Assembly: GCA_021292105.1 (NCBI GenBank)
Contig: CM037867.1
Location: 12,238,183-12,302,182, forward strand
From: Anadara kagoshimensis
Lineage: Eukaryota > Mollusca > Bivalvia > Arcoida > Arcidae
Direction: 5' to 3'
Length of the DNA stretch: 64,000 nt
Part shown: in pieces, positions 10,622-52,904 of the stretch
Layout: every line of letters begins with the position of its first letter
Position numbering within the stretch: the stretch's first letter is position 1
Translations under genes and position numbers: made by a program
Notes under the pieces: model-generated
The model's database searches: none
What the model was told of the DNA's origin: nothing
The model's input: only the letters and a program-made list of their open reading frames with translations

Positions 10622-13600
10622 TCTTCTTGTTGTGTTGCGTTTTCGGTTTTACAACATTTCGAAGTCCTATATTTAACGTATTTCCTTAACATTTCATAAA
10701 TATTTTTGCCCCTAGTGCTGTGTTGCATTTTCGGTTCTCCGACATTTTTCGGGTCAACGCATTGCAGTTAAACGTATTTTTATTTTTCCATTCTTTTAAG
10801 AAATTCTTTAATCGCAGACTTACCGTTTTCGATATTAACATGTACAAAGTTGAGGGCATTCATAATTTGGTTATATTTAGATGGACTTGAATTGGCTAAA
10901 ATTCACATTTATCACCATGTGCACAATGATCCTTTTTTTATTTGGTGGAAGATTTAGCGGTACTGTATCAACATGGAAACTGTTAAAATTAGGGAACCAC
11001 ATTAGTGAATACATTTACAGTATTTTGGTGACATTCCCGTGCTAAACGTATTGCAGTAAAATGTTGTGTTTTTCCTATTCTTATATCATAAGACATTCTG
11101 AGATCATAATGAAGTGCGTTCGTCAGCGTGTAACCTTTATTTATACCCTCAGCGTTTGTGGTGAATGGTATGAAAATCGGGTACGTCGTATATTCCGTCC
11201 AATGAAAATTATTGTTCAGCACAAACATAATCGGCACCACGGAATACACAACGCTGAAAGGATTGCATACATACAAAACATACAACTTTAATAGGTCATC
11301 TCATTTCTTTTACAATAATTGGCGCTTCATTATTAACCAATTCTAGGGCATAAGACGACATACACATAACCTATCAAAAGGAGTACAGTACAGAGCATTT
11401 GTCCTAAATTGAAATTTAATAATAAGCTAACGAATTAGTGCCGAATCGGCAGCTCTTCTCGCAACTCCCATCTATCACCCAGAAGTTTTTAAGCAACTTG
11501 CTATCTATATCTCGGTCGCTCGGCAGCTGAGCTTCGACTGCCATTCGTTAGCTCAGCGATAAACTTTCATCAGGTATGCTACCATTTTACAACAAATATT
11601 TTACTGTGGCAGTTGTCTCAGATGCGTCTTTAGCAGTTATGCCAGTGTTATGTAAGTAAAGACATTGTCGAATGATTAACAATACCTAACGAATAAGTGG
11701 CGATTTACGATGCCTCTTTTACAGTATGGACTTGTCGAAAGTTTAACACTGTGCTAACGAAATAGAGCCGAACTTGGCTGCTAGGTGATCGAGATACGGA
11801 AAGCTACCAGGTAAGAAATAGTAGCTGCCGAAAAGATATGGCTTACGGGAGGCCGAGATAAGCTTCTGATTCCGTACTAATTCGTTATCTTAGTGTTAAA
11901 CTTTTGACAGGCCTGTACTGTAGCTATATCATGACAGCTCTACATAAGCTGATATCTATCTCTCGGACACTTTCAATTCTACCTATAACGGTCACTCAGT
12001 AACCGAGCTTCGACTCGTTTTCGTTAACTCGGTGTTAAACTTTTGACAGGTCTAGATCTATACTATAGCTACAGTACAGACTTTTGACAGGTCTAGATCT
12101 ATACTATAGCTACAGTACAGACTTTAGACAGCTCTAGATCTATACTATAGCTACAGTACAGACTTTAGACAGCTCCAGATCTATACTATAGCTACAGTAC
12201 AGACTTTAGACAGCTCTAGATCTATACTATAGCTACAGTACAGACTTTAGACAGCTATAGATCTATACTATAGCTACAGTACAGACTTTAGACAGCTCTA
12301 GATCTATACTATAGCTACAGTACAGACTTTAGACAGCTCTAGATCTATACTATAGCTACAGTACAGACTTTAGACAGCTCTAGATCTATACTATAGCTAC
12401 AGTACAGACTTTTGACAGCTCTAGATCTATACTATAGCTACAGTACAGACTTTAGACAGCTCTAGATCTATACTATAGCTACAGTACAGACATTAGACAG
12501 CTCTAGATCTATACTATAGCTACAGTACAGACTTTAGACAGCTCTAGATCTATACTATAGCTACAGTACAGACTTTAGACAGCTCTAGATCTATACTATA
12601 GCTACAGTACAGACTTTAGACAGCTCTAGATCTATACTATAGCTACAGTACAGACTTTAGACAGCTCTAGATTTATACTATAGCTACAGTACAGACAGAC
12701 TTTAGACAGCTCTAGGTCTATACTATAGCTACAGTACAGACAGACTTTAGACAGCTCTAGGTCTATACTATAGCTACAGTACAGACTTTAGACAGCTCTA
12801 GGTCTATACTATAGCTACAGTACAGACCTCTCGAAAGTTTAACACGAAGGAAATGAATTAGTGCCAAACCGGCAACTCAGATTGGCGCCTGGCTCCAAAT
12901 ATCTCGACAACTGTTATCTATCTCTTTAGGCAGTTTACGTTCACAAGTTAATTCATATCTCGGTTACTCGATTGTCGAGTTTCCACTCCTTTTCGTTAGC
13001 ACAGTGTTAAACTTTCGGCAGATCTGTACTGTATAGCTTACCAGCTCTACGGAAGTTAATATCTATCTCTTTGGCAGTTATCATCCAATTGCTAGCTGTC
13101 AATAACGGTAACCGAGCTTTGACCCATTTTTGTAAGCTCGGTGTTAAAATTTCGACAGGTCTGTACTGTATTTTATTGAAAACATCCTGTTTCGAGAATG
13201 ATACTTTATACAATATAGCTCTTTATTATAAAAAACAAAGTTAGGACTAGGAACGTTATATACGTATAAGCTATCAAAAGAGACTGCGTAATTGCATAAT
13301 ATTCTATAACCTTAAAGCCTAATTTTCAATAATAAATTGTATCACGCCGTTTCATTGGACTAAAGCCTTTGAAATCTTGACAAATAAAATGCATCACAGT
13401 TTTTGATTGGGCTAACCTTTTGAACTATCTCCTATACACAACATACCGTGATTAATTAAAAATTCATTAGAAATATTAGAAAATTCACAATGAAGTATCG
13501 ATTTTGACAAGTGACATTCTTTGAAACAGTAGTTTTACTTTGTTTTACAATTCAATATTTTGATTTGTGGTTCAATATATTCTTGTTGTAAATATTTGCT

Positions 13601-16600: not shown

Positions 16601-19173
16601 TATCGTTATCTATCTTGTTTTTGCTATATTGATATATCATCATTTCACTATTTCATTAAATTGTTGACCCAGGGATATTGCAAGCCTAGGCTTACCAGGA
16701 CCCTAAAAAGTTTTATGGCCGTCATCACAGTATTGTTGATAAATTTGATGTCTCTGTGTCCAGAATTGCCCTGGATATATTTGAGGTCCCATGGTACCAT
16801 GTTCCTTTCACTCAATTTTGATTACAGACGTGGAAGGTGTAGCTTGCTAAACAGGAGGTGCTTACTCTTCCAGAGCACCCAGCCTCACTTTCCTGGTTAA
16901 AGTTTACATGTTTAATCTAACTTGCTAGTTCCAAAGTTAAAGGGTTTTTTGGCTTCTGGATTGTGATTAGGACAATGATTGGTATGTTTGCTTTTGATTT
17001 AGTTATGCGATAAAGAGAATACCATTCGTTTTGTTTTACTAATTTTAATTACTAACATAATATGAAAAAGGTTGTTTTGCTGTATGCGTTTATTCTGATA
17101 CATGTTTTAGTTTTATATTTGTTTATCATATTTCAGAGGCACATGACGAAACAAGATTCAAGGCGTTCTATGACGTCATCAACACCACCTCTTCCGCCGA
17201 TTAAATCAAATACTCCAAAACAAGACCGAAAACCATCACCATCACGATCAGATAGTCATATGAAACAACGCACTGTCCTACCACCAATCAAACCAAGTAC
17301 TTCTGTTGAACGTCAGGAGGAAGACGATGACCCAACACGTGATCAGGTAATACCACCACGTGATTCTAGGAACTTCGACCCTGACATTGGTGTCGGCGTG
17401 TTGATCATAGGTGGTAAAGATGTTAACCAAAACGACAGAGAGGAACGGCAAAGAGAAAATAAAACTGTGATAGTTCACAAATCTAGAAGTGCATCTCCTA
17501 AAAGATCTCGTTCGAGATCTCGTTCTAGAAAAAAATCTCGTTCCCGATCTCGTTCCAGGAAAAGATCACGTTCTCGATCCCGATCAAACAAACGTAGATC
17601 AAGAAGTCGAAGCATTGATGTTAACGTCATACACGTAGCAAGGTCACATTCACGTGAACGTAAAAGACGAAGTTCAAGTCGACGAAGACGTCATCGATCA
17701 CGAAGTCGGTCTCGTTCTAGAAAAACTCGATCAAATTCTAGGCAAAGGAAACGAGTTGATGTTGCAGTAGTGACAAGAAAATCAAGATCACTTTCAAGAG
17801 GCCGTAGCAGAAGTCGGTCACGTTCTCGAAAACGTTCAAGGTCGCGATCAAAAAGTCGGAAAAAGAAAAAAGCGTTTGCTTCAAGATCCAGGTCATCATC
17901 AAGGTCAAGATCGCGAAATAGAAGAAGGAGTAGATCCTCAAGTAGAGAAGTAGAGGTAAAGATAAAAAACGACCGTCGATCCCGAAGTCGAAAGAGAAAA
18001 AACAGTCGAAGTAGATCTCGATCGTCGAGTTCTAGACGAAATAAAAAAGACAAATCTCGAGGGAGATCTAGAGAACGAAAAAGGAGCAAATCGAAGGAAA
18101 AGACGAAACATAAGAAACGTTCATCAAGCTCAAGGAGGAAGAGAAGTAAATCCAGAGATAGATCCAAGGACAGGAAATCACGATCCAGATCTAGAAGCAT
18201 TGATGTTGACATAAAAGTAGGGAAATCCCAATCGCGAAGTCCTAAGAAGAAGCGAGATAAATCGAAAAGTCGAGCAAAGTCCAGATCAAGGTCCCGTAAA
18301 CGCAACAAGTCTAAGCACAGAAGTAATTCTTCAAGTAGAGACAGGCGATCTGTTTCTGTTGATATAAATGCCGGAAAGTCTAAATCTCGGAAGAAATCGA
18401 GATCACGTTCGAAATCGCCGGTTAAAAAGAGGTCAAGGTCACGTTCAAAATCACCAGCTAAAAAGAGGTCAAAATCACGTGATCGAGATAAAGATAAGCA
18501 CAAGAATCGAAAGCGAAGTAAATCGTCAAGTAGAGATCGTGATTCAGTGGATATTGATATTGATGTTGATGTCAAGAAAAATTCAAAGAAATCTCGGTCA
18601 CCTTCACCGAATAAGAAAAGTTCTAAATCGCGCAATCGCCGGTCTCCAACGCCGTCGCCTTCACCACCGCCCTCTTCTAAAAAGGGTAGAAAAAATTCTA
18701 CACCAGCTCCTGCAGTGGCAGCTGTTGCCGCCAGCAAGAAAAAGCCTAGCGCGGCTGTAGAGAAATCTAGTGCTAATGTGGAATCTTCGGCAAAACCACC
18801 TACCCCACCACACAAATCTAAACCTAAAAATGAAACAGACGATATACCGGCTGCTCTCTCTGCAAATATAAATGTTGATGCCGAAAATGCACCACCATCT
18901 GACACAAAAATACCAAAATCAGACACACCAAAACCAGATAAAAAGGACAAACAGAAAAACAAGGCACCACTGAAAATGGACTCTAAGAAGCCTAAGAAGG
19001 ACGATATGCAAGATGCCATAAAACAATTAGAGGACTTGGCAGACTATAACTTAAATTCATTGACCGGAAAAGGAGACGGTAAATCTCCTGCTCCTAATGT
19101 AGACAAAGCAGTAATGGATAAAGTATTTAAAGAAAATTATCAGAAAGAACTTGATAATTTTTTAAAATCTTAA
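2716..19173 (+). CDS. RS-domain (arginine/serine-rich) protein gene, 3' part, spliced from four visible exons
   Basis: I infer one gene from four phase-compatible exons: 2716-2891, 15297-15446, 16060-16119 and 17137-19173. All have AG acceptors and GT donors and all three visible junctions are phase 0. The visible product is about 806 residues: a basic Lys/Arg-rich segment, a Pro/Thr-rich linker, a long RS domain with many SRSRSR runs, then a Lys/Pro-rich tail ending QKELDNFLKS. RS domains typically mediate splicing-factor contacts and nuclear-speckle localisation after SR-kinase phosphorylation, but no RRM is visible here, so a splicing role is only a possibility. I do not recognise the family. 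Upstream exons are missing because the first exon starts with two bases of a split codon. The 12.4-kb intron could hide further phase-0 exons. A polyadenylation signal AATAAA lies at 19431. Confidence 0.72.
3313..3520. mobile_element. MITE with 'acagtaaaa...tcgctataat' ends
   Basis: The left end 'tacagtaaaatctcgctata' pairs with a decayed inverted right end ('aatcgagattatactgaact'). A second copy, better at its right end ('tcaaggttttactgta'), lies at 43895-44088. TA-flanked short ends suggest a Tc1/mariner-type origin. A C10 run lies inside. Confidence 0.5.
3888..4180 (-). mobile_element. Element ending in a ~140-bp hairpin, copy 1
   Basis: Positions 3888-4027 form a long inverted repeat: 'aagttaaattttcttttt' at the left and its complement at 4027, with an inner palindrome around 'aattcgctacgcgaatt'. 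Reading leftward from 4180 on the minus strand, the element begins near a segment containing 'aagcatttagattggtcaga' and runs into the hairpin. The same layout occurs on the plus strand at 21237-21601, which shows that the hairpin belongs to a larger element. Confidence 0.65.
4436..4632 (+). repeat. SINE body and tail, family A (headless)
   Basis: The copy has the body 'gaaatgaaagtcgcggttct', 'ggcgtggcacgataaaaa', 'cctgctgtataatgccatca' and the tail 'cgatataggtgacatattct'. The tRNA-like head is missing, as in a 5'-truncated copy. Confidence 0.65.
4678..5310 (+). repeat. Dispersed repeat complex with poly(G) tract
   Basis: Positions 5101-5310 carry a dispersed unit whose core is 'actactgatgaggaattgtt' followed by 'ccgaaacggtcgtctagtgc' and 'tgtaaaattaaaacttgtat'. 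Related copies lie at 9605-9775 (plus) and 30185-30310 (minus). A tail fragment of the same unit is at 4678-4730. Between them are a 'gtccgtccttccgtcc' tetranucleotide stretch and a G32 homopolymer (5043-5074). Confidence 0.55.
5043..5074. repeat. Poly(G)32 homopolymer
   Basis: Thirty-two consecutive G residues. It sits in the plus strand of the RS-gene intron. Such tracts can form G-quadruplexes and are also prone to assembly or polymerase error, so the exact length is uncertain. Confidence 0.9.
5710..6160 (-). repeat. LINE 3'-end remnants plus SINE B copy
   Basis: Minus-strand LINE 3' UTR fragments lie at 5710-5805 ('ccgggtgctgcgggagggta') and 6075-6160 ('agacagggtgctcgaga'). A plus-strand SINE family B copy lies between them at 5838-6030, with 'gtgtgagagatcgcttgccg' and 'aggttggcggttttctccgg'. 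Confidence 0.5.
6283..6386. repeat. Three-copy 35-bp tandem repeat
   Basis: Three near-identical copies of a 35-bp unit containing 'gaaatgttggatgcctgcat' start at 6283, 6318 and 6353. The near identity suggests a recent duplication. Confidence 0.9.
6390..7000. other. Non-coding stretch with a poly(A) run
   Basis: No exon or recognisable element was seen. It includes an A31 homopolymer (6758-6788) that is not followed by an obvious duplicated target site. The minus-strand 89-codon reading frame here is created by the poly(T) complement (a run of Phe codons). Confidence 0.5.
7003..7137 (+). repeat. Dispersed ~135-bp repeat ('tggctac' unit)
   Basis: The unit runs from 'cctggtagccaatgg' through 'tctgagaaattctttcaaaa' to 'ggaaatttggcca'. 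Related copies lie at 32258-32405 (plus), 45333-45450 (minus) and, more diverged, near 49165-49300. Confidence 0.5.
7574..7738. mobile_element. Palindromic MITE with 'cagtc(a/c)aacc' ends
   Basis: The left end 'cagtcaaacctttagataaa' and the inverted right end 'aaggcaggttggactgta' flank a centre with 'aaaggccac' and 'ggcctttat' repeats. The family recurs at 39166, 49359, 57808, 61073 and 62333. The ends are flanked by TA, the hallmark of Tc1/mariner-type insertion. Confidence 0.75.
7740..8250. other. Intronic stretch without a recognised feature
   Basis: The stretch is AT-rich. I saw no exon, inverted repeat or tandem array here. Confidence 0.4.
8254..9557 (-). mobile_element. Tc1-like DNA transposon, ~1.3 kb, decayed
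   Basis: The terminal inverted repeats match well: the left end reads 'acagtgacatgtcaaaattg' and the complement of the right end reads 'acagtggcgtgccaaaattg', and similarity continues inward for about 50 bp. The length of 1304 bp is typical of Tc1/mariner elements. The flanks are AT-rich, but the expected TA duplication is no longer exact. The transposase lies on the minus strand and is broken. Confidence 0.88.
8500..9326 (-). pseudogene. Tc1-like transposase, inactivated
   Basis: Two minus-strand frames carry Tc1-like transposase. The upstream part (9326-8961) has the helix-turn-helix region, with NKSTISRLVNKY, then GRKSVIDERGDR, and ends TNRKHRVRWCK; no ATG precedes it and a stop lies just upstream. 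The downstream part (8805-8551) has MFWGCVTFSGVG and FIFQDKNAPCH. The third-motif segment SPDLNIIEN is read in another frame near 8540-8570. Tc1 enzymes use a DDE/DDD triad. Here the position normally occupied by the second Asp before 'NAPCH' appears to be Lys, and at least two frame changes break the reading. It is inferred to be non-functional. Confidence 0.85.
9605..9775 (+). repeat. Dispersed repeat ('ccgaaacgg..gtctagtgctg' unit)
   Basis: This copy is closely related to 5101-5310, with 'ttccttagctggtttttgta', 'caagcactactggtgaattg' and 'ccgaaacggccgtctagtgc'. It begins just beyond the right end of the Tc1-like element. The unit resembles the conserved 3' part of a SINE, but I cannot name the family. 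Confidence 0.6.
9780..10380. other. Intronic stretch without a recognised feature
   Basis: No exon, tandem repeat or terminal inverted repeat was recognised. Confidence 0.4.
10383..11110. repeat. Three diverged local repeats with T40 tract
   Basis: Related blocks begin near 10383, 10625 and 11033. They share 'tccgac.tttttcgggt', 'cattgcagtaaaa' and 'ataagaaattctgagatcat' type segments. A T40 homopolymer (10581-10620) separates the first two blocks. Confidence 0.5.
11384..11575. mobile_element. MITE with 'ctgtactgta' ends (diverged)
   Basis: The left end 'agtacagtacagagcatttg' and the inner 'gctaacgaattagtgccga' match the family. The right side ('ttcgttagctcagcgataaa' followed by 'ctttcatcagg') is decayed. 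Confidence 0.5.
11720..11922. mobile_element. MITE with 'ctgtactgta' ends (well preserved)
   Basis: The left end 'tacagtatggacttgtcgaa' continues with 'agtttaacactgtgctaacg'. The right end is its inverted partner, 'cgttatcttagtgttaaact' followed by 'tttgacaggcctgtactgta'. It is about 203 bp, has no reading frame, and TA lies at both ends. Confidence 0.75.
12039..12820. repeat. 41-bp tandem satellite, 19 copies
   Basis: Nineteen copies of a 41-bp unit containing 'gctctagatctatactatag' and 'ctacagtacagactttagac'. Period 41 is constant except for two late units lengthened by a 'cagac' repeat. Identity between units is very high. The first unit emerges directly from a MITE right end ('gtgttaaacttttgacaggt') and the last runs directly into a MITE left end ('tacagtacagacctctcgaa'), so the array sits between two ends of the same MITE family. 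Confidence 0.97.
12816..13033. mobile_element. MITE with 'ctgtactgta' ends
   Basis: The left end 'tacagtacagacctctcgaa' and the right end 'gttaaactttcggcagatct' plus 'gtactgta' enclose about 218 bp. A right-half-only relative follows at 13034-13171. Confidence 0.75.
13175..13890. other. Intronic stretch without a recognised feature
   Basis: AT-rich sequence with no exon or clear repeat that I can identify. Confidence 0.4.
13895..14145 (+). repeat. LINE 3'-end remnant
   Basis: The fragment contains 'cacacgtggaggatgtagct', 'cccatccggaacacccggcc' and 'ggatttgaacatgacaagta'. These segments belong to a LINE 3' UTR repeated many times in this window. Confidence 0.55.
14185..14253 (+). ncRNA. Pre-miRNA-like hairpin (candidate)
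   Basis: The arm 'tgtcatgtgctgctttcgaa' pairs with 'ttcaaaagcagcacatgaca': a perfect 16-bp core, one mismatch, 4 more pairs, then a loop of about 15 nt. A weaker lower stem adds a few pairs. Size and arm length fit an animal pre-miRNA in the sense orientation of the RS-gene intron. A tiny palindromic transposon remnant would look the same. Confidence 0.3.
15085..15205 (+). repeat. LINE 3'-UTR remnant
   Basis: A short copy with 'gcctcactttcctggtggaa', 'gttcacgcaatgaacttta' and 'cggtatattcgtgtgtttgg'. It lies about 90 bp upstream of the next exon. Confidence 0.5.
15297..15446 (+). CDS. Exon of RS-protein gene
   Basis: The acceptor 'tatatatttgcag' and donor 'gtaggtgtta' bound exactly 50 codons, phase 0 at both ends. 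The peptide starts ADTSASSLERNDSAFASVDI, includes PDFVNGDEDK and TPTPEPTISK, and ends NRYQK. It is Ser/Thr/Pro-rich and looks disordered. I do not recognise a domain. Confidence 0.75.
15835..15965 (+). repeat. SINE family A tail fragment
   Basis: The fragment has 'aactcctgtcacttcaccta', 'tagctggtgacgtattgatg' and 'caagtgaaattttcttgatt', which matches the SINE A tail, in an intron of the RS gene. Confidence 0.55.
16060..16119 (+). CDS. Short exon of RS-protein gene
   Basis: The acceptor 'tatatcatttcag' and donor 'gtaaataatg' enclose 20 codons in phase 0: DSPPSTSHQPDNMEDTARAR. A 60-bp phase-0 exon can be skipped without changing the frame. Confidence 0.65.
16170..16995 (+). repeat. Two LINE 3'-end remnants
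   Basis: The copies lie at 16170-16300 (3' UTR only) and about 16660-16995. The second retains decayed reverse-transcriptase C-terminal peptide, LLTQGYCKPRLTRTLKSF in one frame, followed by the 3' UTR ('gcacccagcctcactttcct'). Both are in the sense orientation of the host intron. Confidence 0.65.
17137..19173 (+). CDS. Terminal exon of RS-protein gene (RS domain)
   Basis: The acceptor 'tatcatatttcag' precedes 17137, and 678 codons are followed by TAA at 19171. It opens RHMTKQDSRRSMTSSTPP with two PPIK segments. An RS domain (about 17485-18660) has long SRSRSRKK runs, and a Lys/Pro/Ala-rich tail ends YQKELDNFLKS. Eight short alternating aliphatic/acidic or polar segments (SIDVNVIHVA, VDVAVV, VEVKIK, SIDVDIKVGK, VSVDINAGK, SVDIDIDVDV and others) punctuate the region. 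The frame stays open 25 codons upstream of the acceptor, but that stretch is the polypyrimidine tract. Nuclear localisation is likely from the basic content; the function is unknown. Confidence 0.85.
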   Translation, partial: RHMTKQDSRRSMTSSTPPLPPIKSNTPKQDRKPSPSRSDSHMKQRTVLPPIKPSTSVERQEEDDDPTRDQVIPPRDSRNFDPDIGVGVLIIGGKDVNQNDREERQRENKTVIVHKSRSASPKRSRSRSRSRKKSRSRSRSRKRSRSRSRSNKRRSRSRSIDVNVIHVARSHSRERKRRSSSRRRRHRSRSRSRSRKTRSNSRQRKRVDVAVVTRKSRSLSRGRSRSRSRSRKRSRSRSKSRKKKKAFASRSRSSSRSRSRNRRRSRSSSREVEVKIKNDRRSRSRKRKNSRSRSRSSSSRRNKKDKSRGRSRERKRSKSKEKTKHKKRSSSSRRKRSKSRDRSKDRKSRSRSRSIDVDIKVGKSQSRSPKKKRDKSKSRAKSRSRSRKRNKSKHRSNSSSRDRRSVSVDINAGKSKSRKKSRSRSKSPVKKRSRSRSKSPAKKRSKSRDRDKDKHKNRKRSKSSSRDRDSVDIDIDVDVKKNSKKSRSPSPNKKSSKSRNRRSPTPSPSPPPSSKKGRKNSTPAPAVAAVAASKKKPSAAVEKSSANVESSAKPPTPPHKSKPKNETDDIPAALSANINVDAENAPPSDTKIPKSDTPKPDKKDKQKNKAPLKMDSKKPKKDDMQDAIKQLEDLADYNLNSLTGKGDGKSPAPNVDKAVMDKVFKENYQKELDNFLKS

Positions 19174-47910: not shown

Positions 47911-48164
47911 CTAGTTGTTCAAAACTCTGTTACCTAAAACAAAATGATAGGTAAAAATTAAATTTTTTATCAAAATTAAATATATTCATTACAGGCATAA
48001 AGTTAAATGTACACTTAAATTACTTCTTGACAATAGTAATTAAACTCATTAACTTTAAAACCTAAATCAAAAAAATATTCATTAATACCATGAATACACA
48101 CACATTTTCACTAACCAACTAGATAAGTTAACACAGAGCTTTGAACAACTGTGTCCTTATTCAA

Positions 48165-49005
48165 CTGTCTAGCACATATATTTCAGCTGCCTTGCTTATG
48201 TATTTCAGCTGTCTAGCAAATGTATTTCAGCTATTAACATATGTATTTCAGCTGTCTAGCTCATATATTTCAGCTGCCTAGCTTATGTATTTCAGCTGTC
48301 TAGCAATTGTATTTCAGCTGCCTAGCTTATGTATTTCAGCTGTCTAGCACATATATTTCAGCTGCCTAGCACATGTATTTCAGCTGCCTAACACATGTAT
48401 TTCAGCTACCTAACACATGTATTTCAGATGGCAAGCATGTATTTCAGTTGTCTAGATAGCACGTAAATTTCATTTGCCTTGTCCATGCATTTCGTCTGCC
48501 TAGCACATGTTTTCAACTGCCAAGTTAATGTATTTCAGCTGTCAGACACATGTACATGTATTTCAGCTTTCTTACACATATACATGTTTTTCCTCTGTCT
48601 AGTGCATGTGCCCAGAACCTGTATTTCAGCTGCCTAGCATTTGCATTTCAGCTGTCTAGGACATGAATTTCAGCTGCCTTGTAGATGTAATTCAGCTATC
48701 TAGGGCAGGTATTTAGCTGATAAGGACTACTATTTCAGCTGTTTGTATTTCATATGTATTTCAGCTGTTTAGCATGTGCATTTTACATGTAATTCAGCTT
48801 TTTAGCAGGTGTATTTTAGCCATCTAGAACATGTATTTCACATGTAATTCAGCTGTTTAGCACATGTATCTTAGCTGTCTGGCATAAGTATTTCATATGT
48901 ATTCCAGCTGCCTAGCACATATATTTCAGCTGTCTAGCACATGTATTCTAGCTGTCTAGGACATTATTTCAGCTGTCTAGCACATATATTTCAGCTACAC
49001 ATTGT
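48165..49005. repeat. ~25-bp minisatellite rich in CAGCTG
   Basis: Over 30 degenerate units of the type 'tgtatttcagctgtctagca' span about 840 bp. Most units contain CAGCTG, an E-box palindrome; I count roughly twenty exact ones. The units are diverged, with variants such as 'cagctacc' and 'cagttgtc', so the array is old. Confidence 0.92.
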
Positions 49006-51426: not shown

Positions 51427-52904
51427 TTAGCTCACCTGACCGAAGGTCATGTGAGCTTATGGCATAGCGCAGCGTGTGTATGTGTGTGCGTGCGTGCGTG
51501 TGTGCGTGTGTGCGTGTGTGCGTGCGTGCGTGCGTCGTTAACACCTATTTTCGACTTCTCCTCTGAAACTACTGGACAGTTTTTAATGAAACTTTGTCAG
51601 AAGTATATATGGGCCGGTGCAATTCAGATTTGTTCGTGGCGTTGCCATGGCTACCATAACTAGGTCAAGGTGACCTAGGGGTGCAAAAATCTTAAAAAAT
51701 CTTCTTCTCCGAAAGTACTGATTGGAGAAAAAATCTGATGTGATATTTGGCTTCTCTAGGGTCTTAAGCCTATAGTTTGTTCATTTTGTGAAATTCTGAT
51801 AAAAAATAGGTTACGCGTTTTTGCGTTTAATTTTGAAAAAATCGTAAAATAGCTTCAAATTGTTATAACTTGACTATTTGACCAGATAATAACATGGGGT
51901 TTTCAGTTTTGACATCTTCTTGTTAGTATCTTCAAAATGAGGTCAAGGTCAATTGTGAAGGTCGTGACCTAATTTTTTTTACCTCTGATTATAATTATTA
52001 TCTCGAAAACTATAAACTATTTGTATAGGCATGTATATTAGAATGTTGTAGGTATTGGTACAACGATCATTTTGGTGTATAGAAAAAGGTCATGGGTTCA
52101 AAGGTCAAGGTCACAGATGTGAAACAATACTGAAATAGTTAATTATCTCGAAAACTATAAACATTTTGTATAGGCATGTATATTAGAATGTTGTAGGTAT
52201 TGATACAACGATCATTTTGATGTATAGAAAAAGGTCATGGGTTCAAAGGTCAAGGTCACAGATGTGAAACAATACTGAAATAGTTAATTATCTCGAAAAC
52301 TATAAACATTTTGTATAGGCATGTATATTAGAATGTTGTAGGTATTGATACAACGATCATTTTGATGTATAGAAAAAGGTCATGGGTTCAAAGGTCAAGG
52401 TCACAGATGCGAAACAATACCGAAATGGTTAATTATCTCGAAAACTATAAACTTTTTGTATAGGCATGTATATTAGAATGTTGTAGGTATTGATACAATG
52501 ATCATTTTGATGTATAGAAAAAGGTCATGGGTTCAAAGGTCAAGGTCATAGATTCGAAACAATACCGAAATGGTTAATTATCTCGAAAACTATAAACTTT
52601 TTGTATAGGCATGTATAATAGAATGTTGTAGGTATTGATACAACGATCATTTTGATGTATAGGAAAAGGTCATGGGTTCAAAGGTCAAGGTAACAGATGT
52701 GAAACAATACTGAAATGGTTAATTATCTTGAAAACTATTAACTTTTTGTATAGGCATGTATACTAGAAAGTTGTAGGTATTGATACAACAGTTATCATGA
52801 TGTAAAGAAAAAAGTCATTGGGGTTTAGTATTTATGTTGTCTTTAAATCTATCAGCTTGCCATTAGTTATCAGGTGAGCGTATCAGGCCCATGGGCCTCT
52901 TGTT
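51427..52904. mobile_element. Bivalve-type dispersed element with 'ttagctcacctga' end
   Basis: It begins 'ttagctcacctgaccgaagg' and ends 'caggtgagcgtatcaggccc' plus 'atgggcctcttgtt'. The two ends contain the inverted pair 'gctcacctga' and 'tcaggtgagc'. After a GTGC-rich microsatellite (51470-51535) comes sequence of the type 'tttcgacttctcctctgaaa', then six 145-bp repeats. From recall, elements with these ends are widespread in bivalve genomes; no protein frame is seen. Confidence 0.75.
51996..52860. repeat. 145-bp tandem repeats, six copies
   Basis: 'aattatctcgaaaactataa' begins copies at about 51996, 52141, 52286, 52431, 52576 and 52721, a strict 145-bp period. Four copies contain 'ttcaaaggtcaaggtca'. 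The last copy is decayed. Confidence 0.95.

Follow-up and report, generated by a model that had tools for sequence, protein, structure and literature searches.

A single-locus 41-bp tandem array whose unit joins the right end of one MITE to the left end of another

How a tandem repeat comes into being is usually inferred long after its seed has decayed, whereas at the locus described here the seed, the edges and the array can be read together. The question is whether the array arose from the MITEs that enclose it and, if so, how. We analyzed a 64-kb window (the whole stretch of DNA under study, G000:C11:12238183-12302182) and searched the genome, comprising 1.115 Gb in 36 contigs. The array and its surroundings contain the following features.

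11655..11719, + strand: left-hand portion of MITE B (alignment begins at consensus position 4)
11720..11922, - strand: MITE A, nested in MITE B; score 90 to the consensus, with the host alignment resuming gap-free across it
11923..12053, + strand: right-hand portion of MITE B, which passes into unit 1 of the array at its right end
12039..12827, + strand: tandem array, 41 bp x 19 (TRF, unit list), the sole locus found in the genome
12039..12079, + strand: unit 1, consisting of ACTTTTGACAGGTCT (right-end piece), AGATCTATACTATAGC (16-nt middle, matching neither end) and TACAGTACAG (left-terminus piece)
12654..12743, + strand: units 16 and 17, each 45 bp with an extra GACA (unit list)
12816..13033, + strand: MITE C, intact; score 161, consensus 1-217, with relatives at 90 and 89% (L009 and L010)
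13034..13170, + strand: right part of MITE D, directly after MITE C

In the window, TRF yields a period of 41, 19.0 copies and a 97% match at 12039-12827, and counting the phase of GACAG[GC]T gives 19 units with 18 spacings, sixteen of 41 bp and two of 45 bp. The initial annotation, made from the sequence alone, had described a 19-copy 41-bp array at 12039..12820; the copy number and the start hold, two units are 45 bp long, and the end has been moved to 12827, the last 12 nt of the array being the first 12 nt of MITE C. The same annotation placed the flanking MITEs at 11720 and 12816. MITE C does begin at 12816, while the copy at 11720 (MITE A) is not the source of the left edge, which comes from its host, MITE B, split by A.

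With 789 bp at one locus, the array is a minisatellite by size, and the term satellite is too strong, as classical satellites form long arrays at several loci. All of it lies in one orientation and does not form the two inverted repeat arms around a core that characterize foldback elements, and the TRF list of the 64-kb window contains no partner array of the 41-bp unit. Its unit shares TE sequence and it adjoins a TE, which makes it a TE-derived tandem repeat. Most likely, the array has no function of its own.

The MITE family was defined by the best genomic matches of window positions 12816-13171 (2,854 first-look candidates, 40 scored), and a majority consensus was built from 29 loci and two window copies. 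The consensus element is 217 bp long and has inverted ends of ∼42 bp, starting with TACAGTACAGACC; being short, bounded by terminal inverted repeats (TIRs) and present in many copies, the family consists of MITEs. Many copies begin and end with TA, which may be a target-site duplication, though TA is also the consensus terminal dinucleotide. By likeness, the family may be of the Tc1/mariner type. The left part of MITE D was looked for and not found. The final 8 nt of MITE B's end are missing or altered, and hence B and C are not simply two adjacent intact elements. A diverged further copy of the same family, with a score of 84 to the consensus, lies beside the cluster at window positions 11384-11578. 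The two relatives of MITE C, L009 and L010, are C6 copies ∼1.2 Mb apart; they share identical 25 nt on each side and therefore may sit in a larger duplicated stretch.

The nesting of A in B was examined by joining the flanks of 31 copies (29 loci, A and C), and then those of 10 further loci. A host MITE was restored across the join for A/B in the window, L011 and L032 among the 31 copies, and for L040 among the 10 further loci, marking these as past insertions. Thus, 3 of the 39 non-window copies are self-nested, in addition to A in B, with scores from 66 to 118 compared with a maximum of 14.5 in 400 random window pieces; for MITE B the joined flanks score 68.5 to the consensus (400 random 320-bp window pieces, the same maximum). 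As the loci were picked for their likeness to C and D, this rate is not that of the whole family. One more locus, L023, was flagged as nested and left out of the count, its score coming from one flank.

The array unit is a chimera of 15 nt of the MITE right end, 16 nt that match neither end and the left terminus. The first piece, ACTTTTGACAGGTCT, matches the right end of the family at 14 of 15 nt and is continuous with MITE B at the left edge of the array. At the other edge, TACAGTACAGAC, the first 12 nt of MITE C, matches the left terminus at 12/12 nt and is continuous with C, and this exact piece is present in every unit. Since the unit consists of a right end, 16 nt and a left terminus, the array repeats the junction of two facing MITE ends. 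The initial annotation had proposed this composition, with the array starting in a right end and stopping in a left end of the same family, and self-alignment with the MITEs bears it out: both ends of the unit match and run on into real elements at the array edges. The score of the unit against the terminal repeat is modest. In particular, 0 or 1 of 1000 shuffles score as high as unit 1, and 6 or 8 of 1000 as high as the common unit, while the window unit scores 12 and an unrelated array in L016 scores 11. The case therefore rests on the two edges being continuous with real elements.

No source of the 16-nt middle was found in MITE B, MITE C, the flanks of other MITEs or the TIR. In the flanks of other MITEs (120 terminus hits) the best match was 10/16 (L012, L013 and L034, C's own flank aside), which shuffled spacers often reached, and we consider it a chance match. 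Against five TIR unit types, the middle did not stand out, with 575 to 2660 of 3000 shuffles scoring equally well. By eye, it has a 6/8 likeness to the missing last 8 nt of B, which we do not claim as a match.

The same comparisons bear on whether the right terminal repeat of B could simply have expanded outward into the array, in the manner of the 40- and 43-bp arrays described below, the second half of the unit having later drifted or been converted by the terminus of C. The array is placed as are the expansions at L089 and in the C1 foldback element, its period is close to the 40-43 bp of terminal-repeat expansions, whole-unit alignments of the window unit to TIR units exist, and the 26-nt remainder of the unit matches the five TIR unit types slightly better than chance, 101 to 316 of 3000 shuffles doing equally well. 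However, the middle alone does not exceed its shuffles, and the exact left-terminus piece that continues into C is repeated throughout, so that we regard such an expansion as unlikely. Descent of the whole window unit from a TIR unit was weakly supported and was dropped.

A genome-wide search with the 31-nt core of the repeat, allowing ≤3 mismatches, returned 19 matches, 19/19 of them inside the window array (the reversed control gave 0). The initial annotation had suggested such a search, and no other locus came up. This also concerns the reading in which MITE C was inserted into an older satellite and its terminus resembles the unit by chance. The unit indeed has a TA where C begins; however, the 41-bp repeat was found nowhere else, the sequence to the right of C is MITE D and no array, and 12 exact nucleotides would have to be a coincidence. 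An insertion of this kind is highly improbable. As the array occupies a single locus, lies exactly between facing MITE ends and is partly made of them, it looks caught close to its birth.

The units themselves are uniform, with a mean pairwise divergence of 0.029 per site over the first 41 positions, and near units are more similar than far ones (Mantel r 0.40, reached by 2 of 5000 permutations). Units 1 and 2 read TTTTGACAGGTCT. GACAGCT occurs in all of units 3-19 and TTTAGACAGCTCT in most of them, the exceptions to this common form being unit 4 (CTCC), unit 6 (CTAT), unit 10 (TTTTGACAGCTCT) and unit 12 (ATTAGACAG); the first two units are thus MITE-like and the later ones have shifted together, as noted at first sight. 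At the right end, variants are shared locally, GACA by units 16 and 17, and AGGTCT by units 17-19. The order of the units fits unequal exchange. Distinct variants along the array speak against simple duplication by the assembler, and an assembly error in the number or layout of the units is highly improbable. The unit might instead have been amplified by rolling replication on an excised circle and then re-inserted, a general route named in excerpts of PMC4079207 and PMC12628747, and a single burst would suit the very uniform middle units. Yet a second locus of the unit was not found, the edges are continuous with B and C, and the variants common to units 16-19 suit stepwise local exchange, all of which makes a circular intermediate very unlikely.

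Birth of the array from MITE ends is well supported, and we think it probable that duplication in place across the B-C junction, followed by unequal exchange, made it. For the course of events we infer the following. Two MITEs of the same family would have come to stand tail to head, with the right end of B, 16 nt and the left end of C. This junction, hairpin-capable through its facing inverted ends, would have been duplicated in place once, the duplicated stretch starting at ACTTTT within the end of B and finishing at ACAG within the end of C. The dinucleotide AC is present at both break points (gttaa/AC/tttt in B and tacag/AC/ctct in C), as would be expected from replication slippage or microhomology-mediated repair; a microhomology of 2 bp is weak evidence. 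The junction collapsed to one unit folds at -13.9 kcal/mol (DNA parameters; z -5.6), with 0 of 200 shuffles as good, and a hairpin may have aided slippage there. The argument is limited to the junction, because shuffles form hairpins as good as those of the single 40-, 41- and 43-bp units or of two window units. Through unequal exchange among these early copies, the number of units would then have risen to 19 and the variants TTTA and GCTC would have spread, the two units nearest B retaining the MITE-like form.

A large number of arrays are made of the ends of this family, and the one in the window is an odd case among them. A search with the window array hit two different arrays, L003 (43 bp, ∼61 units) and L004 with L038 (40 bp, ∼5.7 kb). 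When 39 sequences were scanned for arrays containing the TIR, L011 (102 bp x 5.7) and L019 (101 bp x 5.2) were also found, and none at ten further loci; 2 of the 39 non-window MITE loci have a TIR array within ∼1.5 kb. In these arrays the unit is the MITE terminus: consensus positions 1-40 in L004, 1-43 in L003, and 1-102 in L019 and in four of the five L011 units, one of the five being 110 bp long. Units of L011 and L019 can be aligned with each other from end to end, which is explained by both being consensus 1-102. The consensus has TA at positions 44 and 103, right after the 43- and 102-bp units; a rule that units end before TA fits the 43-bp (L003) and 102-bp units and fails for the 40-bp unit of L004 (AA at consensus 41-42). 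Flanks of the L003 and L004 arrays, inspected by eye, contain no directly adjacent MITE, so arrays need not keep an adjoining element. Terminal-repeat hits occur in L005, ∼2.2 kb from the L003 array, and none in L006.

The anatomy of L011 is informative. At L011:1397-2262, the left part of a host MITE is followed by an intact nested MITE, the right part of the host, and then repeats of this right part (102 bp). The nesting sets two right ends in the same direction ∼102 bp apart, which is the unit length, and the array may have arisen by exchange between them.

A foldback element of the Tetris/Galileo type, belonging to the same MITE family, is found on C1 at about 824.6-827.8 kb (L068-L087). 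Its two arms, 43 bp x 52.8 and, in the opposite direction, 43 bp x 20.4, enclose a short stretch of MITE interior, and the element ends in a complete terminus. The two arms share one kind of unit, with divergence of 0.061 and 0.071 within the arms and 0.091 between them (52 and 11 exact-length units). In L088, a MITE whose right end is single has its left end expanded into 51 bp x 20.8, and in L089 a MITE remnant carries 43 bp x 16.4 at its right end. These 43- and 51-bp units outside the window start with the MITE terminus. All other arrays examined are direct repeats of one terminus, and none is a chimera of two elements.

The facing-end configuration, searched as an exact pattern of a right end (TTGACAGNTCT) separated by 4-30 nt from a left terminus, is matched at 13 places, three in the window array and 10 elsewhere (one on C8, two on C13, one on C14, two on C18 and four on C19), the two on C18 being alike, as are the four on C19. 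Among the matches listed, each of the 10 stands as a single junction, with no second match at array spacing. Their count is a lower bound, as the consensus has TCGACAG at this place and the TTGACAGNTCT pattern misses the common form. The direct terminus-terminus pattern, GTTTAACACT-(5 to 25 nt)-TACAGTACAGACC, has 2,142 exact matches genome-wide (1,244 + 898) and 0 in either reversed control. It covers units of ∼40-60 bp with intact ends and leaves out the 102-bp arrays, L003 and the window array; not one match lies in the window. Nine groups make up the 100 listed places, with seven on C1 (one consisting of a single match) and two on C2, and three of the nine were examined in sequence. Together with L003, L004, L011 and L019, these direct junctions strengthen the broader idea that ends of this family seed arrays.

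A possible extension, which we put forward tentatively, is that the family continually gives rise to tandem repeats. Copies would enter TA sites within other family copies and so set two termini, direct or facing, at a fixed short distance. Exchange would then give units reaching from the exact terminus to just before an internal TA, as for 43 and 102 bp, or units across two facing ends, as for the 41-bp unit in the window. Several stages, namely self-nested pairs, foldback elements and free-standing arrays, would thus coexist in one genome.

Satellite birth from MITE ends is already on record, as excerpts of the literature on Xstir, Tetris TIR-220, TE dimers and stem-loop models make clear. 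In Xenopus, the MITE-borne Xstir repeats (Hikosaka and Kawahara 2004) occur as MITE, array and MITE-plus-array forms, with a model in which a stem-loop between two nearby elements yields hybrid segments (described in PMC12628747 and PMC9659126); the repeat source is internal MITE sequence according to PMC12628747 and the TIR according to a table in PMC9659126. In these descriptions the Xstir products are called interspersed, whereas the window unit spans the ends of two elements and has one locus. In Drosophila virilis, repeats in the TIRs of the nonautonomous element Tetris (TIR-220) seed satellite-like arrays (PMC4079207, in part). The C1 foldback element is built like Tetris; TIR-220 units are ∼220 bp long and lie inside the TIR, whereas the window unit is a 41-bp chimera of two elements. 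Neighbouring copies of one element, the TE dimers that result when it inserts twice (McGurk and Barbash 2018, as summarized in PMC12628747), feed tandem expansion; there whole elements stand in tandem, while in the window the junction alone is repeated. Coral CMITEs form tandem arrays for which the authors of PMC2872659 invoke replication slippage, and these consist of full-sized MITEs, unlike the chimera of two ends seen here. A chimeric two-element unit with both parent edges at a single locus is thus an unusual variant, and the spread of array stages within one MITE family is also unusual. No published description of the 41-bp repeat was found in the literature searched, the coverage of which was partial, so that one may exist.

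One family here links MITE self-nesting, foldback arms and free-standing arrays. As the family also supplies many related arrays and no fewer than 10 comparable single junctions, one can ask which junctions amplify, and why.

Elsewhere in the window, TRF reports a second array at 51997-52818 (145 bp x 5.7, 95% match) and a degenerate 22/44-bp array at 48160-48996, and a long open frame at 17056-19173 encodes a predicted protein rich in arginine and serine.
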